Source: Methanobacteriota archaeon
GTDB taxonomy: Archaea; Halobacteriota; Methanosarcinia; Methanosarcinales; Methanosarcinaceae
Reading direction: 5' to 3'
Length of the DNA stretch: 64,000 nt
Assembly (NCBI GenBank): GCA_016841625.1
Contig: JAENYU010000005.1
Coordinates: forward strand, 1 to 64,000
The notes beneath the pieces were generated by a model, which was not told where the DNA came from, searched no databases, and saw nothing but the letters and a program-made list of their open reading frames with translations. Each line of letters opens with the position of its first letter. Position 1 is the stretch's first letter. The position numbers and the translations under genes are program-made. Below are positions 53,984 to 63,185 of the stretch, in pieces.

Positions 53984-54637
53984 TCAAAGCTGAGTCTTAA
54001 TCTCACCAGTAACATCCGGTCGTGAGAGCGAGTCACTGGCCATATCTTCAGAAACAGACCCATTCGATTTATTCTGGTGGATTTGGGACCCCTCCTTTTG
54101 TTTATGGTTTTCAGTAACTAAACCCGCCGACTCCGCGTCCAGCTTTTTAACAACTCGAGCCGGAAAACCCAGAGCCAAGCTATTTGGTGATATATCTCGG
54201 CTAACTACGGACCCTATTCCTATTATAGAATTTTCCCCAATTTCGACCCCCTGAGTGATTATACACCCCGGATTAACAGAAACACCGCTTCCTATTTTGA
54301 TTGGATCCATACTTCTGGGATATGCATCTCTCGTAGTTAAACTGCCTCTTGTGTGGGCAGATAAAATACATCGGTCCCCAATTTCAGCATAATCTCCTAT
54401 TGTGATTAATTCAGGGTGAAGCCTATCAAAAATTACATCATAACCAATGTACACATTCTTCCCGATATTTACGCCCCTCATTTTATGAAATTTGGCTCTC
54501 CAGGAAGGGATAGGAAAGATTGAGGCAAGTCTTTCCAAAACCCAATTCTTGAAATATTTCACCCCAAAAAGGATTTTATTACTCTGATAATAATCAGCTA
54601 CTTCACGATAAGTTACTTTATCCCTGTCGGATATCAC
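53984..54637 (-). CDS. Hexapeptide-repeat (LbH) O/N-acyltransferase
   Basis: A 217-residue acyltransferase of the left-handed beta-helix family (maltose/chloramphenicol acetyltransferase-like). The turns are visible from residue about 55 (MRGVNIGKNVYIGYDVIF, IGDYAEIGDRCIL, IGSGVSVNPGCIITQGV, IGENSIIGIGSVVSRDI), ending in ALGFPARVVKKL. The catalytic His is likely that of SAHTRG. The last 50 residues are polar and non-family. Such enzymes acylate sugars or amino sugars, using acyl-CoA or acyl-ACP, which fits the carrier-protein genes upstream. Confidence 0.85.
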   Translation of the reverse strand: MISDRDKVTYREVADYYQSNKILFGVKYFKNWVLERLASIFPIPSWRAKFHKMRGVNIGKNVYIGYDVIFDRLHPELITIGDYAEIGDRCILSAHTRGSLTTRDAYPRSMDPIKIGSGVSVNPGCIITQGVEIGENSIIGIGSVVSRDISPNSLALGFPARVVKKLDAESAGLVTENHKQKEGSQIHQNKSNGSVSEDMASDSLSRPDVTGEIKTQL

Positions 54638-54788
54638 GGTAGTGCCCCCCCCATTTTGCGTTGAAAATCACATGTCCCACTTACAATAATACTCTTACAA
54701 CAATAAATACATATTTCCTGTCCCCCTCTTTATTAAGTCTATCAAAATGACAGCACCATTGATTTTGGGACAAACTTTCTACTGGTTT

Positions 54789-55922
54789 TTACCCCCTGTT
54801 TACAATCTTTACAAGCAGTGATTTTTTGATTTCTACCGCATCGTTTGGACACAGTTCGCGGCAACAATAACACTGGATACATTTTTCATTGTTGATCTTG
54901 AGTACATCATCCACTTTCTCAATGGCATTTGCCGAACAGTTCAAAACGCATGCTTTGCAAAGTGCGCACCTTGAAGTGTTGATGAAAGGCCTGACCGTTA
55001 AATGCCTCCTTAGAGCCTTTCGAAGAAACGGAGGCATCAGGGCACCGATTCCGCCGGTTGGCTTTTTGAAACTGACCTTTACCTCTTCCAGAGGGGTTCC
55101 TACAAGCTCTGGATGCCTGGTACCAAATCCCCTCGCAAGTGCTGCTTTGTTTGTCGGGACCTGCATCGGGTCAAACCCTATGAGTTCCGATGCCACCATA
55201 TCCAGTGCCACACAGTCATAACTTGCCATGACCACTCCCGCATATGCAGGAGTGCCTCCCGCCGGGCCATCCCCCTCCATTCCGACCACGCCATCCATAA
55301 CAGCAAGATGAGGTTTGATGAAAGAGTAGATATCAACAAGTGCCTCTCCGAAAAGTTCACGGTCTTCGAGGAAATGCGCCTGTTTTCGGATTTTCCGGGG
55401 CACAGTGCCAAAAAAGTTTTTGACCGCTCCTGTATAGAGTGTGAGCTCATGGGTCTTGAGCTTCGGAAGAGAAATTATCACATCCGCCTCAAGTATGGCC
55501 TTTGATATGTACAGGCGTGAGAACTGCCTGCCTCCGGGCACATCAACCTCGACAAAACCCGAGGTCTCAAAATTGATGAGTTCCACACCGCAAGCTGAGG
55601 CAACAGCTTCAATTCCCGACACCCGGAGTGCTTCCGCAGTGGCAGTGGAATCAGGTCTTGTAATTCCGGACCCATCCCCTATGACCGGAATACCCCCTGC
55701 TTCTGAAACCAGTTCACACAGCGCAGATACAACTGCAGGGTGAGTGGTGACTGCATCTTCCGGGGGCCGAATGGCAAGTACATTGGGTTTGAGCAACACA
55801 CGGGAACCCGGAACGATTATTTTCTCAAGCCCACCGATAAGGTCAAGAGCTTCTTTGATCTCATTTTTTACGTCTGAATAATCGGAGCAAGGCACGATGG
55901 AAACTCTGGCGTTCATGATCAT
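54789..55922 (-). CDS. DUF362 protein with two 4Fe-4S ferredoxin motifs
   Basis: A 377-residue protein. Residues about 1-300 form DUF362 (LLKPNVLAIRPPEDAVTTHP, SLPKLKTHELTLYTGAVKN), and the C terminus has a ferredoxin domain with two clusters, CALCKACVLNC and CIQCYCCRELC. DUF362 proteins are often annotated as iron-sulfur proteins of unknown role. In this neighbourhood it could supply electrons for reduction of a bound intermediate. ATG 55922 and 55916 are both possible. Confidence 0.85.
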   Translation of the reverse strand: MIMNARVSIVPCSDYSDVKNEIKEALDLIGGLEKIIVPGSRVLLKPNVLAIRPPEDAVTTHPAVVSALCELVSEAGGIPVIGDGSGITRPDSTATAEALRVSGIEAVASACGVELINFETSGFVEVDVPGGRQFSRLYISKAILEADVIISLPKLKTHELTLYTGAVKNFFGTVPRKIRKQAHFLEDRELFGEALVDIYSFIKPHLAVMDGVVGMEGDGPAGGTPAYAGVVMASYDCVALDMVASELIGFDPMQVPTNKAALARGFGTRHPELVGTPLEEVKVSFKKPTGGIGALMPPFLRKALRRHLTVRPFINTSRCALCKACVLNCSANAIEKVDDVLKINNEKCIQCYCCRELCPNDAVEIKKSLLVKIVNRG

Positions 55923-56054
55923 ACATCAACATTAAGTTTTGAAATCTTTTGTTTTGCAATCTGTTTATAAAGGCCTCTTTTTACAGGCTTTATTTTTGGA
56001 AGCTTCTTTTTTATAGACTTTTTTTCGGTTCTGCATCATTTCGCGAAAGAATGT

Positions 56055-56156
56055 GAAACCAGTAACAGCACTATGATGAAAGCATGAAAGCAATAACGGC
56101 ATCATGAGACCAGTAACAGCACTATGATAGAAGCATGAAAGTCATAACGGAACCAT
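56055..56156. repeat. 51-bp tandem duplication
   Basis: Two copies (56055-56105 and 56106-56156) of a 51-base unit containing ACCAGTAACAGCACTATGAT, differing at about seven positions. They lie between fabG and the DUF362 gene. Confidence 0.85.
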
Positions 56157-56186
56157 GACCAATATAAAGCCTTATTGTTGACCGCA

Positions 56187-56927
56187 TCACAGCATCTGAC
56201 AGCCGTCGACCACAACGACCTCTCCGCTGACATACCCCCCGAGATCCGAGCTCAAAAACAATACCACTTTTGCAATATCTTCGGGCGTACCGATCTTTCC
56301 GAGGGCAATACTGGAAATAATTTTTTCCCGAATTTCAGGTTTAAGGTCTTTGATAAGGTCAGTTTCAACGAAACCGGGTGCAATGGCATTGACAGTTATT
56401 CCATACCTGCCCAGTTCCTGTGCCGCGGATTTTGTAAGTCCGATAACAGCCGCCTTGCTTGCAGAATACACTGTTTGCCCGGCATTCCCGTAGAGCCCTA
56501 TAGTTGAGGATAGATTGATAATCCTGCCGGACCCCTGCTTCTTCATCAGGTTCGATGCGTACCTGGCACACAGGAAAGTCCCCTTCAGGTTAGTCGCAAT
56601 GGTACGGTCGAAGAGTTCCGTATTGCTCAGCATCAGAAGGTTGTTTTGCATGATTCCCGCATTGTTTACCAGCACATCGAGCCTGGTATGTTTCTCCCGA
56701 ATAACCCGGAACATGGCCCTTACATCATCTTCGGATGAGACATCAGCCTTGGCCAGTGAAGCCTGGAGCCCTTTCTCGTGGATCATGTCCGCAAGTTCAA
56801 CTGCCTTTTCCTCACTCCCGTTGTAGTTTATGATCACATGTGCGTGGTTCTCTGCCGCCAGCAGGGCTGTAGCTCTTCCAATCCCCCTACTTGCGCCTGT
56901 TACCAGTACCACTTTTCCTGTAAGCAT
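56187..56927 (-). CDS. 3-Oxoacyl-ACP reductase-like SDR (FabG type)
   Basis: A 246-residue short-chain dehydrogenase of classical FabG type: cofactor motif TGASRGIGRA (residues 10-19), NNAGI, catalytic Ser in LSSTIG, YSASKAAV with Tyr and Lys, and the C-terminal GYVSGEVVVVDGC. Archaea lack bacterial fatty acid synthesis as a rule, so a FabG beside an ACP is noteworthy; it may reduce a 3-oxoacyl thioester on that ACP. It follows the NadE-like gene by 68 bases on the same strand and probably shares its transcript. Confidence 0.88.
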   Translation of the reverse strand: MLTGKVVLVTGASRGIGRATALLAAENHAHVIINYNGSEEKAVELADMIHEKGLQASLAKADVSSEDDVRAMFRVIREKHTRLDVLVNNAGIMQNNLLMLSNTELFDRTIATNLKGTFLCARYASNLMKKQGSGRIINLSSTIGLYGNAGQTVYSASKAAVIGLTKSAAQELGRYGITVNAIAPGFVETDLIKDLKPEIREKIISSIALGKIGTPEDIAKVVLFLSSDLGGYVSGEVVVVDGCQML

Positions 56928-56994
56928 TTTCCTTCCTCTGACTTAAAGATAGATGGCTGCCTGTGAAGCAACCATCCAGAAAAAAAGCTGCGGC

Positions 56995-57993
56995 TTAACT
57001 GTCCAGGGAGCAGATCGGTGCGGCTACCCGCACATATTCGGTAGTATCTTTTATTCTATCAATATGCCTTTGAGCCTTGAGTATGGTCTCTCCGGACAGT
57101 CCGGTGTTCTTCTCAATTACTTCCAGGGGCAGTTGATGTTCCTGACCATACAGTAATTGATCCATGACATGGATGGGCATGCGCCAGTAGAAGTCCTCAT
57201 CAGAGGTGTAGTGGCTCCAGGTGTCAGCACTTGGAGGCCGCCGTATAATCTCTTCGTTGACATTGAGATATTTTGCCAGAGCATAGACCCTGGTCTTATA
57301 GCAATCCGCCAGGGGTTCGATATCAACGCCCCCGTCCCCGTATTTCACGAACTGACCAAGAACCATTTCTGTCTTGTTGGTTGTACCGCAAACGGCATAG
57401 TTCATCTTCTCAGCGTACATATACTGGACTATCATTCTGGACCTCTGTTTGACGTTCTGCAGTCCGATCAGTTCCAGATAATCGTTTGCCTTCAACCTGT
57501 ATTTTCCAACTGACTCTCCGTCTTTTATCAACTTTATATACGGAACGTTCAACAATCCCTGGTTCAGGAAATCAGGCAGTACCAGGGACGTTTTGTGGAT
57601 TTCGGGGTCATATTCGGGGCAGGTCCTCTTTATGATCTGGTCCTTCTTCTCATAGATATCAAGTGATTCCAGTATAGGAGAGATAGGAACCTCTTCATAA
57701 GACACTCCCAGGTTTTCACAGATTTCTGCCCCAAGAGTTTTACTCGAAGGAGCCGATTCTTTTTCAGGAAGGAGCAGGCCGTAAACGTTGTCCTTTCCAA
57801 GTTCCTGTACGGAAAGCGTAAGAGTTACGGCTGAATCAACTCCTCCCGAAACTCCTATGACCACCCCCTTTTTCTTAAAACCGACAACATGGTCTTTGAT
57901 AAAGCCCCTTAGCTCCATTGCAAGTTTTTCAATGTCCCCGTTAAGTTTGTCCATTATTTGCGTGTCCATTAATTGCATATCCATTATTGGCAT
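56995..57993 (-). CDS. NadE-family ammonia-dependent amide synthase
   Basis: A 332-residue member of the NAD synthase family: PP-loop GVSGGVDSAVTLTL (about residues 48-61), ATP-site TTNKTEMVLGQFVKYGDGG and DIEPLADCYKTRVYALA. It lacks a glutaminase domain, so it would use free ammonia. It could be the organism's NAD synthase, but it is longer than typical archaeal NadE (about 250-280 residues), with an insertion around residues 115-150, and lies in a carrier-protein cluster; a specialised amidation of a pathway intermediate is a real alternative. The start is uncertain because of several Met (MPIMDMQLMDTQIMDK). Confidence 0.78.
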   Translation of the reverse strand: MPIMDMQLMDTQIMDKLNGDIEKLAMELRGFIKDHVVGFKKKGVVIGVSGGVDSAVTLTLSVQELGKDNVYGLLLPEKESAPSSKTLGAEICENLGVSYEEVPISPILESLDIYEKKDQIIKRTCPEYDPEIHKTSLVLPDFLNQGLLNVPYIKLIKDGESVGKYRLKANDYLELIGLQNVKQRSRMIVQYMYAEKMNYAVCGTTNKTEMVLGQFVKYGDGGVDIEPLADCYKTRVYALAKYLNVNEEIIRRPPSADTWSHYTSDEDFYWRMPIHVMDQLLYGQEHQLPLEVIEKNTGLSGETILKAQRHIDRIKDTTEYVRVAAPICSLDS

Positions 57994-58002
57994 GATATTG
58001 CC

Positions 58003-58298
58003 CCCACAATGGTTAGAAGATTCACATTAGATTACAAAGTAAGTAATTTAACCCGTTGATTTTGAGGGGATAGCCCCCGTTAATTTAAAGGGAATAGCCA
58101 CCCTCGATTTTGAGGAAATAGCTCTCATCAATTTTAAGGAAATGGCTACCAATGATCCTGGAATTCTCTTTACTCAGCCAGCAAGAGCCATATTTTTAGT
58201 CACCTGTGTCCAGATCTTGAATGGCAACGGATCAGATATCAGATCTCTGGTAACAGACTTCTGGTAACAGATCTCTGGTAACAGATTTTGAGAGCTAC
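58003..58298. repeat. Intergenic with two tandem-repeat arrays
   Basis: Four 24-base units (58058-58081, 58082-58105, 58106-58129, 58130-58153) of the type GATTTTGAGGAAATAGC followed by C/T-rich bases, then a second array of about three TCTCTGGTAACAGA units of 14-16 bases (58241-58286). They separate the amidotransferase-like gene from the NadE-like gene; no gene is present. Confidence 0.85.
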
Positions 58299-59303
58299 TC
58301 ACCTGTAATTTAGTTTATTTGCAGCTTCCTCTATCAGGGGCTGTGATAGCTCCTGGTGGAGTTTTTCCAGGCCTTCCTCCCTTGACATATCCCCGCTTCG
58401 GACAATTCCTGCTATATCAAAGCCATACGGGTGGATCCCGTATTTTTCCAGATGGTTATAACAGGCAAAAGAATTCAATGTACAGTTGGTTGAATTGCTG
58501 TCATTGAGATCCGGAGGGTTCCACCCGAGCTCCACAAGCGTCTCAATTATTTTACCTTCGTTGTAGTCCCACAGACACAGAGGATGAAGCATCCTCGGAC
58601 CCTCCTTGCCCATATTATCTATCACATCGTTTTTAACCAGGAAGTTCTCACCCCTATCATCGATGCCAATTTTTTGAAGTTGCTTCTCAAAAATATTTCT
58701 GGACCACCGTATAAAATTAGCCTTCAGGGGAATTATGGGATTAGGAGACTGCCCCGGTGTGAAGGCAAACATAATGAAAGGTGCATCCTGAACAATAGCT
58801 TCTTCTATCAACTTCTGTTTGATGATACTGATACAGGTGTTGCATATGTCGCTGGCCCTGTATTTGGCAAACTTGGGGAATGCATCGCGGGATTCCGCGG
58901 CTTTCCGGAACGTTTCGTACAGGGTCTCAGGTTCCATCGTCAGTTTAAAATAATCGGACCCTGTGAGTTCACAGATCTTTTTCGCGTTTTCTACTGCGTT
59001 GTCAGATATAAACCCATTATCAAACTGGACCGCCAGGACCTTCAGGAAAGGATATTCTTTTTTGAGTTTGTGAAGCGTGTATGAAGAGTCCTTGCCCCCG
59101 GAAAGTGCAAAGACCACGTCGTAGTTACCCTTGCCCCCGTATTCCTTGAAGAGTTCTTCCATTTTCGCCAGATATTCACCCTTTTCCTGCGCAGAAAGAG
59201 GGACATACGTCTCGCAAAAATGACAGAGCCCGCTTTCCTCATTGATATCTATGCCTGGTATATCCGAGTCCAGAACACACTTTTTACACACTATTCTTGA
59301 CAT
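58299..59303 (-). CDS. WbpG/PseA-like PP-loop amidotransferase
   Basis: A 334-residue protein of the N-acetyl-sugar amidotransferase type (WbpG, PseA, LPS biosynthesis). It has an N-terminal zinc-type pair CKKCVLD...CHFCETY, the PP-loop FALSGGKDSSYTLHKL (about residues 65-80) and DICNTCISII. WbpG adds an amidino group to acetamido sugars, taking ammonia from a HisH-like glutaminase; none is visible here. It overlaps the AMP-ligase by 20 bases and must be translated with it. Confidence 0.82.
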   Translation of the reverse strand: MSRIVCKKCVLDSDIPGIDINEESGLCHFCETYVPLSAQEKGEYLAKMEELFKEYGGKGNYDVVFALSGGKDSSYTLHKLKKEYPFLKVLAVQFDNGFISDNAVENAKKICELTGSDYFKLTMEPETLYETFRKAAESRDAFPKFAKYRASDICNTCISIIKQKLIEEAIVQDAPFIMFAFTPGQSPNPIIPLKANFIRWSRNIFEKQLQKIGIDDRGENFLVKNDVIDNMGKEGPRMLHPLCLWDYNEGKIIETLVELGWNPPDLNDSNSTNCTLNSFACYNHLEKYGIHPYGFDIAGIVRSGDMSREEGLEKLHQELSQPLIEEAANKLNYR

Positions 59304-60771
59304 TTTGGTACTCCCCTATAATTGACCGATTGGATATCTTCCCATTCTCGCTTAATGGAAGATGGTCGATGAAAAGTATCTCCCTGGGACACAGGTACCC
59401 GGGCAAATTCTTCCGGCAGAATGAAAAAAGAGTATCAATTTCTGTCCCTTCTTTCGGGATGACCATGAGACTGATCGCAGTCCCCATCAGCTCGTGGGAA
59501 ACAGGTACGACAAAAACCCTGGAAACCACCGTGTTATTCTCTATGTGTTTTTCAATTTCCCTCGGATTCACACGATGATCGCCTATTTTAATGAGGTCGT
59601 CCTTTCGGCCAAGCAGGCTGAAATAACCGTTGGGCAATTTCTGTGCCAGGTCCCCCGTGTGCATCCATCCATTTATGAGCTTCTTTTCAGTTGCGATCTC
59701 GTCGTCCAGATAACCCAATAAAATATTCTCGCCCCTGGCAACCAGTTCACCCCTGATGTTCGGCCCTACCTGCCTGTTATCATCATCGAATACGTCAAGC
59801 ATAACACCGGGAATCGGCCTGCCTATCGTATCAACGAACTCGCCCACATCCTCTGACGGCAGGTAGGCCAACCGTGCTGTGGCTTCAGTCTGGCCGTACA
59901 TCGGCAGGATCTCAATACCGGGGCTCAACTCTTTTATCTCTTTCACGGTTAATGCGTCCATTCCCCCCCCTGCGGACGCGGCAGTCCTGACATTTTCAAA
60001 TGCCCTTTTGAACCTCTCAGGATAGCGGAGGAGGATCCGATAGGTACTTGGCACTCCGTAGAATATGGATACTCCCGATTCAACCAGACTGAAGGTAGAT
60101 TCCATAAAATTCATGTTTCCTATTCTGACGGCCCCCCCTGCCATCAGGTGGGAATCGATTATGGAATTTCCAAAAGCATGGTGCGGAGATATTACCAGCG
60201 CTCCCTTATCACCGGAACTTATGCCGAGTACCTCTATTATCGATTCTGCATTTGCTACCAGGTTCCGGTCACTTAACATGACCCCCTTTGGAGTCCCTGT
60301 CGTGCCGGAAGTGTAGAGCACCAGCCTCAGGTCCGGATTGTTGACCTCATTTACTCTATTTTTACGCAGGGTCTTTACTGAACTGTCATTTGAAACAAGA
60401 AGAACTGTTCCAAAACGCCCAAAAAAGTCCTCCCCATATCTCGAGTACTGTGCTTCTGTTGCAATTATATTATTGACATGGGCATTATCAAGAATTTGCT
60501 CCAGACTGAATTTCGGAAATTCGATCGGAAGAGGTATTGCAATGTTGGCTGACCGGTATACTGCCATGAGAATCTTTATATATTGTATGCCGGACTCCGC
60601 CAGGATTGCAAACCTGCAATGCCCGAAGTCCCCTACAGACGAAGCAATGGCATCGATATCTTCATTGAGAAAGCTGTAGGAGATGGAGTTTTTGCCTTCT
60701 TCCAGGGCAATTTGCTGAGGAGTTTTCCTGGCGTATTCCGTGATATAAGCATCGATTCTCATATCTCTCAC
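59284..60771 (-). CDS. AMP-forming acyl/aryl ligase for the carrier protein
   Basis: A 495-residue adenylate-forming enzyme (ANL family). Core motifs are complete: LYTSGTTGTPKGVMLS (A3), MYGQTEATA (A5), HTGDLA (A7), GRKDDLIKIGDHRVNPREIE (A8) and the catalytic Lys in LPLSENGKISNRS (A10). It would activate a carboxylic acid as the adenylate and load it on the ACP, whose gene it overlaps by four bases (ATGA). The specificity pocket cannot be read reliably. NRPS condensation domains are absent. Confidence 0.88.
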   Translation of the reverse strand: MRDMRIDAYITEYARKTPQQIALEEGKNSISYSFLNEDIDAIASSVGDFGHCRFAILAESGIQYIKILMAVYRSANIAIPLPIEFPKFSLEQILDNAHVNNIIATEAQYSRYGEDFFGRFGTVLLVSNDSSVKTLRKNRVNEVNNPDLRLVLYTSGTTGTPKGVMLSDRNLVANAESIIEVLGISSGDKGALVISPHHAFGNSIIDSHLMAGGAVRIGNMNFMESTFSLVESGVSIFYGVPSTYRILLRYPERFKRAFENVRTAASAGGGMDALTVKEIKELSPGIEILPMYGQTEATARLAYLPSEDVGEFVDTIGRPIPGVMLDVFDDDNRQVGPNIRGELVARGENILLGYLDDEIATEKKLINGWMHTGDLAQKLPNGYFSLLGRKDDLIKIGDHRVNPREIEKHIENNTVVSRVFVVPVSHELMGTAISLMVIPKEGTEIDTLFSFCRKNLPGYLCPREILFIDHLPLSENGKISNRSIIGEYQNVKNSV

Positions 60772-61013
60772 TTCGCCAGTTTGACAATCAGGTCAGTGAT
60801 CCCCTGCAGTGAGTCAAAATTTTCCGGCGTCAGCATGTCTTCGGGAATTTCGATGGAATACTGTTCACATATATAGTCCATCAGTTCAAGCAGCCCGATC
60901 GAATCCATGATGCCGTTCTGGGTTAGAGAATCATTATCTTTCAAGCCAATGTTCGCGTCCATAAAAGAACTGTCTTTCAGATAATCAAGTATGTCATTCT
61001 TTATATGTTCCAT
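60768..61013 (-). CDS. Acyl carrier protein
   Basis: An 81-residue acidic four-helix carrier. The phosphopantetheine attachment serine is in GIMDSIGLLELMDYI (about residue 38), and the flanking residues fit D-S-L/I ACP and PCP sites. ACPs are rare in archaea, which do not make fatty acids by the bacterial route. It is the first gene of the ACP-ligase-amidotransferase operon; a phosphopantetheinyl transferase gene lies 0.9 kb upstream. Confidence 0.9.
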   Translation of the reverse strand: MEHIKNDILDYLKDSSFMDANIGLKDNDSLTQNGIMDSIGLLELMDYICEQYSIEIPEDMLTPENFDSLQGITDLIVKLAK

Positions 61014-61901
61014 TCGACCTTAGCCCCCCAATTTCATGTCGTGGATAAAACAATAGGAGTAGTATACACTTCAGTATATCATCGTGTTAATATTCTCATA
61101 AATATTTGAGTAATCCCCATTAGTATTTACGTATTTTCAATTATTTATATTGTTTCTCATATAAATTATTTGTATTGTTTCCCGTATCATTTCTTACATT
61201 GTCCCCCGTGTCAATTATTTATATTATCTCTCATTTCTTAGCTATGTCCCCCATTATATTGTCCCCCCATGACACCTGGCAATGCTAATTATTATATTGT
61301 TCCCATCTTTCATTTTACAACAGTATCTGCCACAACTTCTTATCAAACGCTAGAAGGATAAACAGCAACTACGGGGAGACTTCTCCTGACAAACTTATAC
61401 CCCTGTTCCACTCAATATTGAATCAGTCATGTTTCAATAATCTCAGGCACTGAATAACTGCACTCCAGAACAGTTTGCCACGACAGTAAATCTTTTATTA
61501 TTTTTTTCAATAGGCTAACTTCCAACTATTTTTTGTAAAATTTCTGCCTGTGAGGAAAGGTATCTATAGCCAGACATCAGCAAGTGCTATACAACCCCAA
61601 CAAATAAACTAATATTGAAATAAAATTCCTGAAATGGGTTGAGGAACAATGGTTCTTAAAATGTTTAAAGACAGTTTTATAAAAGGTTCTGTACAGAACC
61701 CCCGCAAAACTCAGAGAATAACAAAGAAAAAGATTACTCCAGGCATTCAAAAAGCATTGTTTTCGTATGTGATTTGAACATAACAGTATCAAATGAATGG
61801 AGTAGGAACATGAACAAGGTAGGAACATGAACAGGGTAGGAACATGAACAGGGCAAGTAAGGGGGTTCAAAAAATCGGAGTTCTAAGGTTTAGAACCAGT
61901 C
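61014..61901. other. Intergenic region upstream of the ACP operon
   Basis: About 890 bases with no supported gene. It is very AT-rich, with a degenerate repeat of the type ATTATTTATATTGTTTCTCA (about 61138-61245) that contains TATA-like elements, and three 17-base units AGGAACATGAACAGGGT at 61804-61854. The frame at 61577-61870 on the minus strand looks non-coding. Confidence 0.55.
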
Positions 61902-62597
61902 TCATAAATAGGCTATTTTCTGAAGACGACTTATATTGATTGCATGCCGGTCGTCATCAGTAATGATAGAAAGTATGTATTTGTTGTCTATTATATGGCT
62001 TGAATGGAAGACATTGTTAAGGTCCAATTCCCTGTGAAAACTGGAAAAAATGTTCTCATTTGAAAACTTGCAATACGCTTCATTCAGGGTCCACGTAGTT
62101 AAAATATCGAGCTCATTTGCGGATTTGTCGATTTGCAAAGTTTTTTTGTGCAGGTATTTTGAAATGTTTGAAAGAGCCCGCTTTTTTCTCAACTCCACAT
62201 CAACCCCCACCTCAACCTTTGATATTACAAGGGTAACAATATTTTCAGTATATGATATACAGATGTGTAATTCTTCATGGCTGCTTACATGGACTTTTCC
62301 GTATTCGTCCTTGTATGTAGCTATATCGGAGGCGGACTGTCCTTTAAGAATGCGGCAAAGAATACATTTCAGGACCATTCTGGAAGTAATGTACCTTTTC
62401 CTGAAATACCCGGTTTTTAATCTCTCCAGATATTCCGTTTCGATTTCATCAAGGTATTCCGTACTCAATGTGCCGTAATCGTCCAGGTCAACTAGAAAGA
62501 TCAGGATATCATTCTGTTCCCATAAGTCTGGTATATTTTCCAGAAGAGTATGTTCCAGAGTAATGGAAGATGCTACCTGTAAATTTTTAGTTTGCAT
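61902..62597 (-). CDS. Sfp-type 4'-phosphopantetheinyl transferase
   Basis: A 231-residue enzyme that would convert apo-ACP to holo-ACP by transferring phosphopantetheine from CoA. The Mg-binding signature GVDVE (VEVGVDVELRKK) and the second motif WTLNEAYCKF (W-x3-E-A-x-x-K) are both present, with HISYT before them as in Sfp (HxSxS/T). It is the only visible partner able to activate the ACP nearby, which supports a functional carrier pathway. Overall similarity to bacterial enzymes looks low. Confidence 0.85.
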   Translation of the reverse strand: MQTKNLQVASSITLEHTLLENIPDLWEQNDILIFLVDLDDYGTLSTEYLDEIETEYLERLKTGYFRKRYITSRMVLKCILCRILKGQSASDIATYKDEYGKVHVSSHEELHICISYTENIVTLVISKVEVGVDVELRKKRALSNISKYLHKKTLQIDKSANELDILTTWTLNEAYCKFSNENIFSSFHRELDLNNVFHSSHIIDNKYILSIITDDDRHAINISRLQKIAYL

Positions 62598-62663
62598 GCC
62601 TGTTCACGAGATACCTGTTACAAAATATCTGTCATAACCCCTATAAAAGCGAGTACCTGCAAA

Positions 62664-63185
62664 TCAGTGAGTTAACCTGTGTCTCAGGTAAATTGCAGAT
62701 AGGAGTACGGCTATCATTAAACCGATAAATTCAATTATGAAACAGGGGCAAAGAGACGGAACATACCCGATCCTGGCCATCTTCAGGAAGTAATCCAGCA
62801 CCCCGCCGTAATAGCAACCCACAGGGAATTCCCAGCCAAAAGCCGGCCAGAAAAAGGTATAGGGCGTATTCCACATGCCGTCTTCAAGCAGGTGGAAAAA
62901 ACAGGCTCCCGATATAAGGAATATACCTGTGTCCCTGCTCTTCCCATAGCTATAGTAACCCAGCAATGCAATAAAAAGACAGAACACAAGCGTATGCCCG
63001 ACAATCCGCCCATTTGCGAGGGTCTCGGCAAAGATCACCCTGCCGACCAGTTTGTCAAGGATGTCCGGCAGCAGGGCTCCGAAAGCTATGTAGCGATAAT
63101 CAAGCCTGCCCCTGAGTGCCGGAAGAATGCGCCCAAGCATGAAGAAAATCCCAATCGTAAAAATGAGATGCCCGAAAATTAACAT
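62664..63185 (-). CDS. YdjM-like membrane metal-dependent hydrolase
   Basis: A 173-residue integral membrane protein with about four to five helices. The pattern FGHLIFTIG...ALLPDILDK...GRIVGHTLVFC...FFHLLEDGMW gives the His and Asp positions of the YdjM/DUF457 family (predicted membrane-bound metal-dependent hydrolases). The substrate is unknown. It precedes the PPTase gene by 67 bases on the same strand, so it may be part of the same unit, but the family is common and a link to the pathway is not certain. Confidence 0.75.
   Translation of the reverse strand: MLIFGHLIFTIGIFFMLGRILPALRGRLDYRYIAFGALLPDILDKLVGRVIFAETLANGRIVGHTLVFCLFIALLGYYSYGKSRDTGIFLISGACFFHLLEDGMWNTPYTFFWPAFGWEFPVGCYYGGVLDYFLKMARIGYVPSLCPCFIIEFIGLMIAVLLSAIYLRHRLTH

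Follow-up and report, generated by a model that had tools for sequence, protein, structure and literature searches.

A co-inherited five-gene carrier-protein unit in methanogenic archaea and its possible role in acyl tailoring

PP-loop enzymes that work on carrier proteins are known from closthioamide biosynthesis, in which CtaC is a thioamide synthetase that depends on a carrier protein and has the [4Fe-4S] motif known from TtcA and TtuA (PMC6772006). CtaC acts only on carrier-bound substrate and its homologues often lie near nonribosomal peptide synthetase (NRPS) genes; its PP-loop carries D77 and S78, and the three residues predicted to hold the cluster, C154, C157 and C284, are each required for full activity (PMC6772006). 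A second described system comes from pSymB of Sinorhizobium meliloti. The ligase SMb20650 is reported to be co-transcribed with the acyl carrier protein (ACP) SMb20651 and to acylate this ACP in vivo, and not to be a long-chain acyl-CoA synthetase (PMC7232532); the function of SMb20651 is described as needing further investigation (PMC5686131). A third group comprises the N-acetyl sugar amidotransferases (WbpG, WbuX and LpNASAT; structure 8wex), for which the SGGXDS PP-loop and a tetracysteine have been given as criteria (PMC10607449). We compare with these systems a gene unit from a Methanobacteriota archaeon of the family Methanosarcinaceae (GenBank assembly GCA_016841625.1, contig JAENYU010000005.1, positions 1 to 64,000 of the forward strand). 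This stretch of 64,000 nucleotides, referred to here as the window, holds the unit within a run of nine genes at 53984–63185, all on the minus strand. Archaea are not known to build fatty acids on carrier proteins, and the prevailing view is that they do without acyl chemistry on ACPs; a literature search for a pathway that combines an ACP with a WbpG enzyme in archaea gave no relevant paper.

A five-gene unit inherited as a set

Five of the nine genes form a single unit. They code for an Sfp-type 4'-phosphopantetheinyl transferase (PPTase), an ACP, an AMP-forming ligase, a WbpG-like PP-loop enzyme and a NadE-like enzyme. Pfam and NCBIfam matches of the window proteins bear out the positions and strands that an initial annotation had given for the genes it named. 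The unit and its key codons are as follows.

61902–62597, minus strand: Sfp-type PPTase, presumed activator of the ACP (PF01648, 21.6 bits; catalytic motif present)
60768–61013, minus strand: dedicated ACP of 81 amino acids (PF00550, above cut-off)
60900–60902, minus strand: codon of ACP Ser38, to which phosphopantetheine is presumably attached (DSIGL; D37, S38, I39, G40 and L41 invariant in 10 relatives)
59284–60771, minus strand: AMP-forming (ANL) ligase, predicted acid:ACP ligase (PF00501, 5e-51, and PF13193)
58299–59303, minus strand: WbpG-like/CtaC-like PP-loop enzyme with an N-terminal tetracysteine and a CxxC...C triad (C154, C157, C274)
58842–58844, minus strand: codon of Cys154, first cysteine of the CxxC (from alignments)
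58482–58484, minus strand: codon of Cys274, third cysteine of the triad (STNC; from alignments)
56995–57993, minus strand: NadE-like predicted ammonia ligase of the NF002048 (PRK00876) subfamily (478 bits, cut-off 313)

Large gaps separate the NadE-like gene (305 bp) and the PPTase gene (888 bp) from the trio of ACP, ligase and WbpG-like genes. The overlap of 20 bases reported between the ligase and WbpG-like genes is confirmed and recurs in relatives. The ACP/ligase overlap had been read as ATGA and is in fact GTGA; moreover, the ligase likely starts 9 bases further on, at ATG 60762, from which all relatives align, and this start would leave a 5-base gap between the two genes.

Evidence for a unit comes from its distribution. 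Among 112 Methanosarcinaceae genomes (counted as genomes, not as independent events), the WbpG-like and NadE-like genes occur in an identical set of 51, and the other 61 lack both. ACP genes were found in 48 of the 51, and the three gaps are genomes that are 60–81% complete. The unit is patchy within genera, being absent, for example, from G016 (genus g6), G087 (g13) and most of g10; its genes have therefore probably been gained or lost jointly on more than one occasion. Named genome records that carry it belong to Methanosarcina, Methanococcoides, Methanolobus and Methanomethylovorans. It recurs at 44–55% identity in Methanoculleus, Methanoregula and other Methanomicrobiales, as well as in one bin labelled Thermoplasmata; order and strand are scrambled there, but the genes still stand together. 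The ACP and NadE-like genes are present in all 26 named loci that are untruncated, that is, long enough for gene content to be judged, the ligase is present in 25 and the PPTase in 21. Across 393 genomes of the phylum, a clean identity gap separates the WbpG-like orthologues (at least 50%) from ordinary sugar amidotransferases (31–41%, mostly over partial length). Co-conservation in relatives, on which the initial annotation had let its pathway stand or fall, is what we find. Decayed copies also occur: the ligase is split in one locus (L043:8044-9397) and truncated in another (L039, where no NadE-like gene was called), and the NadE-like gene of G103 contains a stop (G103:C1:2923020-2923982).

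The ACP matches PF00550 weakly, at 21.8 bits (cut-off 20.8), and no other PP-binding protein was found in the genome. In a profile search its nearest solved structures are peptidyl and D-alanyl carrier proteins, and it resembles natural-product carriers (the cispentacin carrier AmcB, PltL and PigG). The PPTase falls just under the PF01648 cut-off of 25 and below that of NCBIfam AusB (1.4e-10); the Pfam score is above the cut-off in relatives from L091 and L101, and the Sfp-type catalytic motif, GxDxE with WTxxExxxK (G131, D133, E135, W169, E173 and K177), is invariant in 12 relatives. NRPS adenylation domains hold the α-amino group of their substrate with an Asp. The ligase has a Gly at the aligned position, and an α-amino acid is therefore an unlikely substrate and an acid without an α-amino group a likely one.

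Relatives of the NadE-like and WbpG-like enzymes

Relatives of the NadE-like enzyme lie on plasmids of Sinorhizobium, Ensifer, Shinella, Mesorhizobium and Azospirillum, and the two that were scored reach 513–517 bits in NF002048. In the annotated rhizobial and related plasmid loci that we inspected, the NF002048 protein is encoded beside an ACP, an AMP-ligase and AsnB (all four genes are seen in L119, L120, L121, L123, L124 and L125). The order on S. meliloti pSymB is NadE, ligase, ACP and AsnB; on the basis of replicon and gene content, the ligase and ACP here are probably SMb20650 and SMb20651, and this pair would be the nearest experimental parallel for an archaeal ligase that loads an ACP. 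The rhizobial units thus resemble the archaeal unit in the NF002048 subfamily, the ACP and the ligase, whereas they carry AsnB, lack a WbpG-like gene and have no PPTase listed beside them. Loci from Nitratireductor, Shinella and Roseateles have in front an extra ‘hypothetical’ protein of 360–370 amino acids (read by eye as the GNAT type of Methanomicrobiales, which Pfam did not bear out), and glycosyltransferases are nearby in Shinella and Roseateles. The exosortase A/PEP-CTERM exopolysaccharide ligase family TIGR03098 is the best family for both the Methanomicrobiales and the rhizobial ligases, and the PEP-CTERM amidotransferase family TIGR03108 is a good match for the rhizobial AsnB, in each case below the curated cut-offs.

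The WbpG-like enzyme shares with the N-acetyl sugar amidotransferases the fold, the SGGXDS PP-loop and the CXXC...CXXC tetracysteine. The best fold in the Protein Data Bank for its AlphaFold model (pLDDT 92.5) is 8wex (TM 0.71), compared with TM values of 0.31–0.42 for NcsA, TtuA and LarE. It differs from WbpG, WbuX and LpNASAT in scoring 113.9 bits against TIGR03573 (curated cut-off 203.2), in its own clade, in the extra CxxC...C triad and in its neighbours, which are an ACP and a ligase; no HisH/HisF partner was recognised beside the unit in the flanks that were read.

We placed the enzyme in a tree of 39 sequences: 13 archaeal unit enzymes, 3 bacterial domains and 23 other family members, some of the last on long branches. 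The 13 archaeal enzymes cluster with the 3 bacterial domains, which are NRPS-associated, apart from the other 23 (support 95/94). In Roseovarius pelagicus, the PP-loop domain is inserted into an A domain, between the core and the C-terminal subdomain (C-A[PP-loop]-PCP-C-A-PCP-TE), and a copy in Pseudohalocynthiibacter is 92% identical to it. In Streptomyces NBC_01216, the domain is fused in front of a C domain, beside an A-PCP protein and AsnB (NRPS proteins with a built-in or fused PP-loop domain are at L117:6424-14472 and L142:14932-17112). Where the action of domains so placed in NRPS proteins is known, their substrates are acids in carrier-bound or adenylated form, and the sister domains therefore lend support to a predicted ACP-bound substrate for the archaeal enzyme; an ACP gene is adjacent in all 26 untruncated loci. 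The archaeal enzyme is thus probably not an ordinary sugar amidotransferase, to judge from its sequence relationships. One locus has both PP-loop types, as the unit there adjoins a separate ordinary WbpG gene and a HisH-like gene (L114:11378-13170).

The three cysteines C154, C157 and C274 are invariant in 23 archaeal relatives, and the 3 NRPS-fused members have the triad too. It is absent from the main sugar-amidotransferase lineage, several members of which are encoded with HisH or HisH/HisF (L146, L147, L149, L150 and L151), and the residue of 8wex that aligns with C274 is not a cysteine. Compared by published residue numbers, D72/S73 and C154, C157 and C274 of the window enzyme correspond to D77/S78 and C154, C157 and C284 of CtaC; the triad spacing is 117 residues in the former and 127 in the latter, and the CtaC spacings of 77 and 127 fall within the ranges of the triad-bearing family (67–82 and 114–140). 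The CtaC system also resembles the archaeal unit in its free-standing carrier protein, AMP-forming ligase, PP-loop ATPase with a three-cysteine motif and anaerobic setting. The archaeal unit differs in that no CtaG-type peptidyl transferase was recognised, a NadE-like enzyme is added and the genes are often in glycan loci. A plasmid search for clostridial CtaC homologues found none, and the phage sequences searched gave no match.

A proposed pathway and competing explanations

We consider it about an even call that the unit is a dedicated carrier-protein (thiotemplated) acyl-tailoring module. In the pathway that we propose, the Sfp-like PPTase would arm the ACP, and the AMP-forming ligase would adenylate a carboxylic acid that lacks an α-amino group and load it onto the ACP. 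The NadE-like enzyme would then use ATP and ammonia to convert a carboxylate to an amide, and the WbpG/CtaC-like enzyme, with ATP and sulfide probably bound to a [4Fe-4S] cluster, would convert the C=O of the carrier-bound amide to C=S or, alternatively, to the amidine C=NH. FabG may reduce the acyl chain in some lineages. Finally, a lineage-specific acyltransferase (a hexapeptide protein in Methanosarcina-type loci, a GNAT-like protein in Methanomicrobiales) would move the group to an amine, most likely that of an amino sugar in a surface glycan. The full chain, in which a repurposed NAD-synthase subfamily and a CtaC-like [4Fe-4S] enzyme would build a thioamide acyl group on the ACP for attachment to methanogen surface glycans, is rather unlikely when taken as a whole, and we offer it tentatively.

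The choice between sulfur and nitrogen bears on an earlier claim, as the initial annotation had treated both PP-loop enzymes as ammonia-adding. This is no longer well supported for the WbpG-like enzyme, which groups with domains built into NRPS proteins and has the CxxC...C triad of CtaC. Sulfur insertion appears at least as likely as amidation and is moderately favoured over amidination. The preference is moderate because a relative encoded in a HisH/HisF operon (L143) has the triad as well, CtaC was compared through residue numbers only, and the metal site is only predicted. In view of L143 we rejected the CxxC...C motif as proof of sulfur insertion. Other observations also weigh against the proposed pathway. 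The nearest fold is that of a sugar amidotransferase; the rhizobial units lack a WbpG-like gene, and a sulfur (or amidine) step is thus not universal; the ligases of Methanomicrobiales and Methanosarcinaceae share only about 30% identity, so that substrates may differ; no acyltransferase is universal across units; and many Methanosarcina copies, including that of the window, lie outside glycan loci.

The alternative that fares best is possible, at distinctly less than even confidence: both PP-loop enzymes would add ammonia, with the WbpG-like enzyme forming an amidine (on an acyl group or a sugar) and the NadE-like enzyme an amide, for the decoration of a glycan. Fold and family name, those of N-acetyl sugar amidotransferases, agree with this, as does the glutamine-dependent AsnB that stands in for the WbpG-like gene in rhizobial units. 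Genes for UDP-GlcNAc(3NAc)A-type sugars, the setting in which WbpG acts, are also present in L101 (UDP-sugar dehydrogenase, Gfo/Idh, DegT and hexapeptide genes). However, no HisH/HisF glutaminase was recognised among the neighbours of the unit, unlike several sugar amidotransferase loci; the triad is one that the main HisHF-partnered lineage lacks and that 8wex does not complete; and the clade is shared with NRPS-fused domains.

A second question is where the product goes. Several gene neighbourhoods point to glycans. Glycosyltransferases and a flippase lie beside the unit in Methanosarcina second copies; in Methanococcoides the unit directly adjoins genes for a Gfo/Idh oxidoreductase and a UDP-sugar dehydrogenase; in Methanolobus its neighbours encode a UDP-GlcNAc 2-epimerase, a UDP-sugar dehydrogenase and a hexapeptide protein; and in Methanomicrobiaceae it occurs with a flippase, glycosyltransferases, UDP-sugar dehydrogenase, Gfo/Idh, DegT aminotransferase and a hexapeptide protein. 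The surface-glycan link suggested by the initial annotation thus stands as a matter of gene neighbourhood in several genera, but a fixed placement in glycan loci is ruled out by the many copies elsewhere. Cis-prenyltransferases (UppS-like) make the carrier lipids of glycans. A gene for one lies just past the window end (L073:684-1622, about 64683–65621 in window coordinates), and it stays near the unit in the genus of the window and in Methanosarcina. Second copies of the unit (L036, L039, L041, L042 and L044; Methanosarcina G074, G080, G103 and G079) adjoin iorA/iorB, as read by eye. These genes, for indolepyruvate:ferredoxin oxidoreductase, are a possible source of an aryl acid for the second copies, which perhaps derive from one ancestral event.

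A surface glycan is our best guess for the destination, and the main rival is that the unit makes a diffusible small molecule, a short acyl amide or thioamide resembling closthioamide. The pathway that comes nearest in function makes an antibiotic (PMC6772006), the ACP resembles carriers of natural products, several copies lie outside glycan loci and the iorAB genes could supply an aryl acid. We nevertheless regard a diffusible product as doubtful: the flanks examined show no gene for export or resistance that is kept with the unit, and placement in glycan loci recurs in unrelated genera.

A role in primary metabolism or cofactor synthesis (NAD or a methanogen cofactor) is very unlikely. The NF002048 subfamily is annotated as NAD(+) synthase and the unit is common in Methanosarcina, but a separate, complete and ordinary NadE is encoded on another contig of the genome, which disfavours the cluster enzyme as its NAD synthase, and the 61 family genomes without the unit include near-complete ones.

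Fatty-acid synthesis and NRPS chemistry had been set aside by the initial annotation because it saw no condensing enzyme, and none is at the locus. A profile search found no PF00668 condensation domain in the whole genome, and no AcpP of the fatty-acid-synthesis type is among the ACP profile matches listed; the view of a dedicated ACP pathway that is neither of these is upheld. The genome has one weak match to the ketoacyl-synthase family (PF00109, 25.2 bits, on another contig), which we do not take as a sign of a condensing enzyme that serves the ACP, because the family matches all 14 control genomes, other archaea included. The chance that type II fatty-acid synthesis or an NRPS survives in the unit, as a remnant or in variant form, is next to negligible, for although an ACP, a FabG-type reductase, a PPTase and an A-domain-like ligase are all present, the condensation domain and the ACP type are missing, the ketoacyl-synthase match is single and weak, and FabG is not universal.

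Neighbouring genes and implications

The other four genes of the run are accessory to the unit or are neighbours.

62664–63185, minus strand: YdjM-like membrane protein (PF04307), neighbour outside the unit
56187–56927, minus strand: FabG-type SDR reductase (NCBIfam match), accessory and lineage-specific
54789–55922, minus strand: DUF362 and 2x[4Fe-4S] protein (Pfam match), neighbour probably outside the unit
53984–54637, minus strand: hexapeptide acyltransferase (Pfam match), accessory

FabG and the hexapeptide acyltransferase had been counted as members of the pathway; they travel with the unit in some lineages, and this part of the claim holds only there. Orthologues of FabG (at least 69% identity) are in 23 genomes, all unit-bearing, and the gene does not adjoin the unit in most Methanosarcina nor in Methanomicrobiales. 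Orthologues of the hexapeptide acyltransferase (at least 65% identity) are in 41 genomes, of which all but G035 carry the unit. G035 instead has another kind of ACP-type locus, a glycan locus in which the hexapeptide and FabG genes are next to genes for an AMP-ligase-LuxE fusion, LuxC and an AcpS-type transferase. A GNAT-like protein replaces the hexapeptide acyltransferase in Methanomicrobiales and also in one Methanococcoides locus. The gene set described for G035 is seen at L152:4820-10629, an archaeal glycan locus with AcpS-type transferase, AMP-ligase-LuxE fusion, LuxC, FabG and hexapeptide acyltransferase genes, the last two frame-shifted by decay or assembly error. The DUF362-ferredoxin protein, also proposed as a pathway member, drops out as a core part: orthologues or close paralogues occur in 82 genomes, many of which lack the unit. 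The YdjM-like gene is close to the unit in some genera only. Short tandem repeats lie in intergenic gaps of the cluster, at 56054–56158, 58052–58150 and 61802–61853.

The presence in many methanogens of a co-inherited ACP pathway calls for explanation. Our comparisons suggest that the NF002048 proteins (‘NAD synthase’) and part of the ‘sugar amidotransferase’ family serve carrier proteins in both archaea and bacteria. This suggested role extends to the uncharacterised ACP/ligase pair of S. meliloti, and the NF002048 proteins may be misnamed. If the proposal is correct, the ligase would load the ACP, amidation would shift the mass of the bound group by −1 Da and the sulfur step by +16 Da, and deletion of the unit would alter a glycan or a metabolite of the methanogen.

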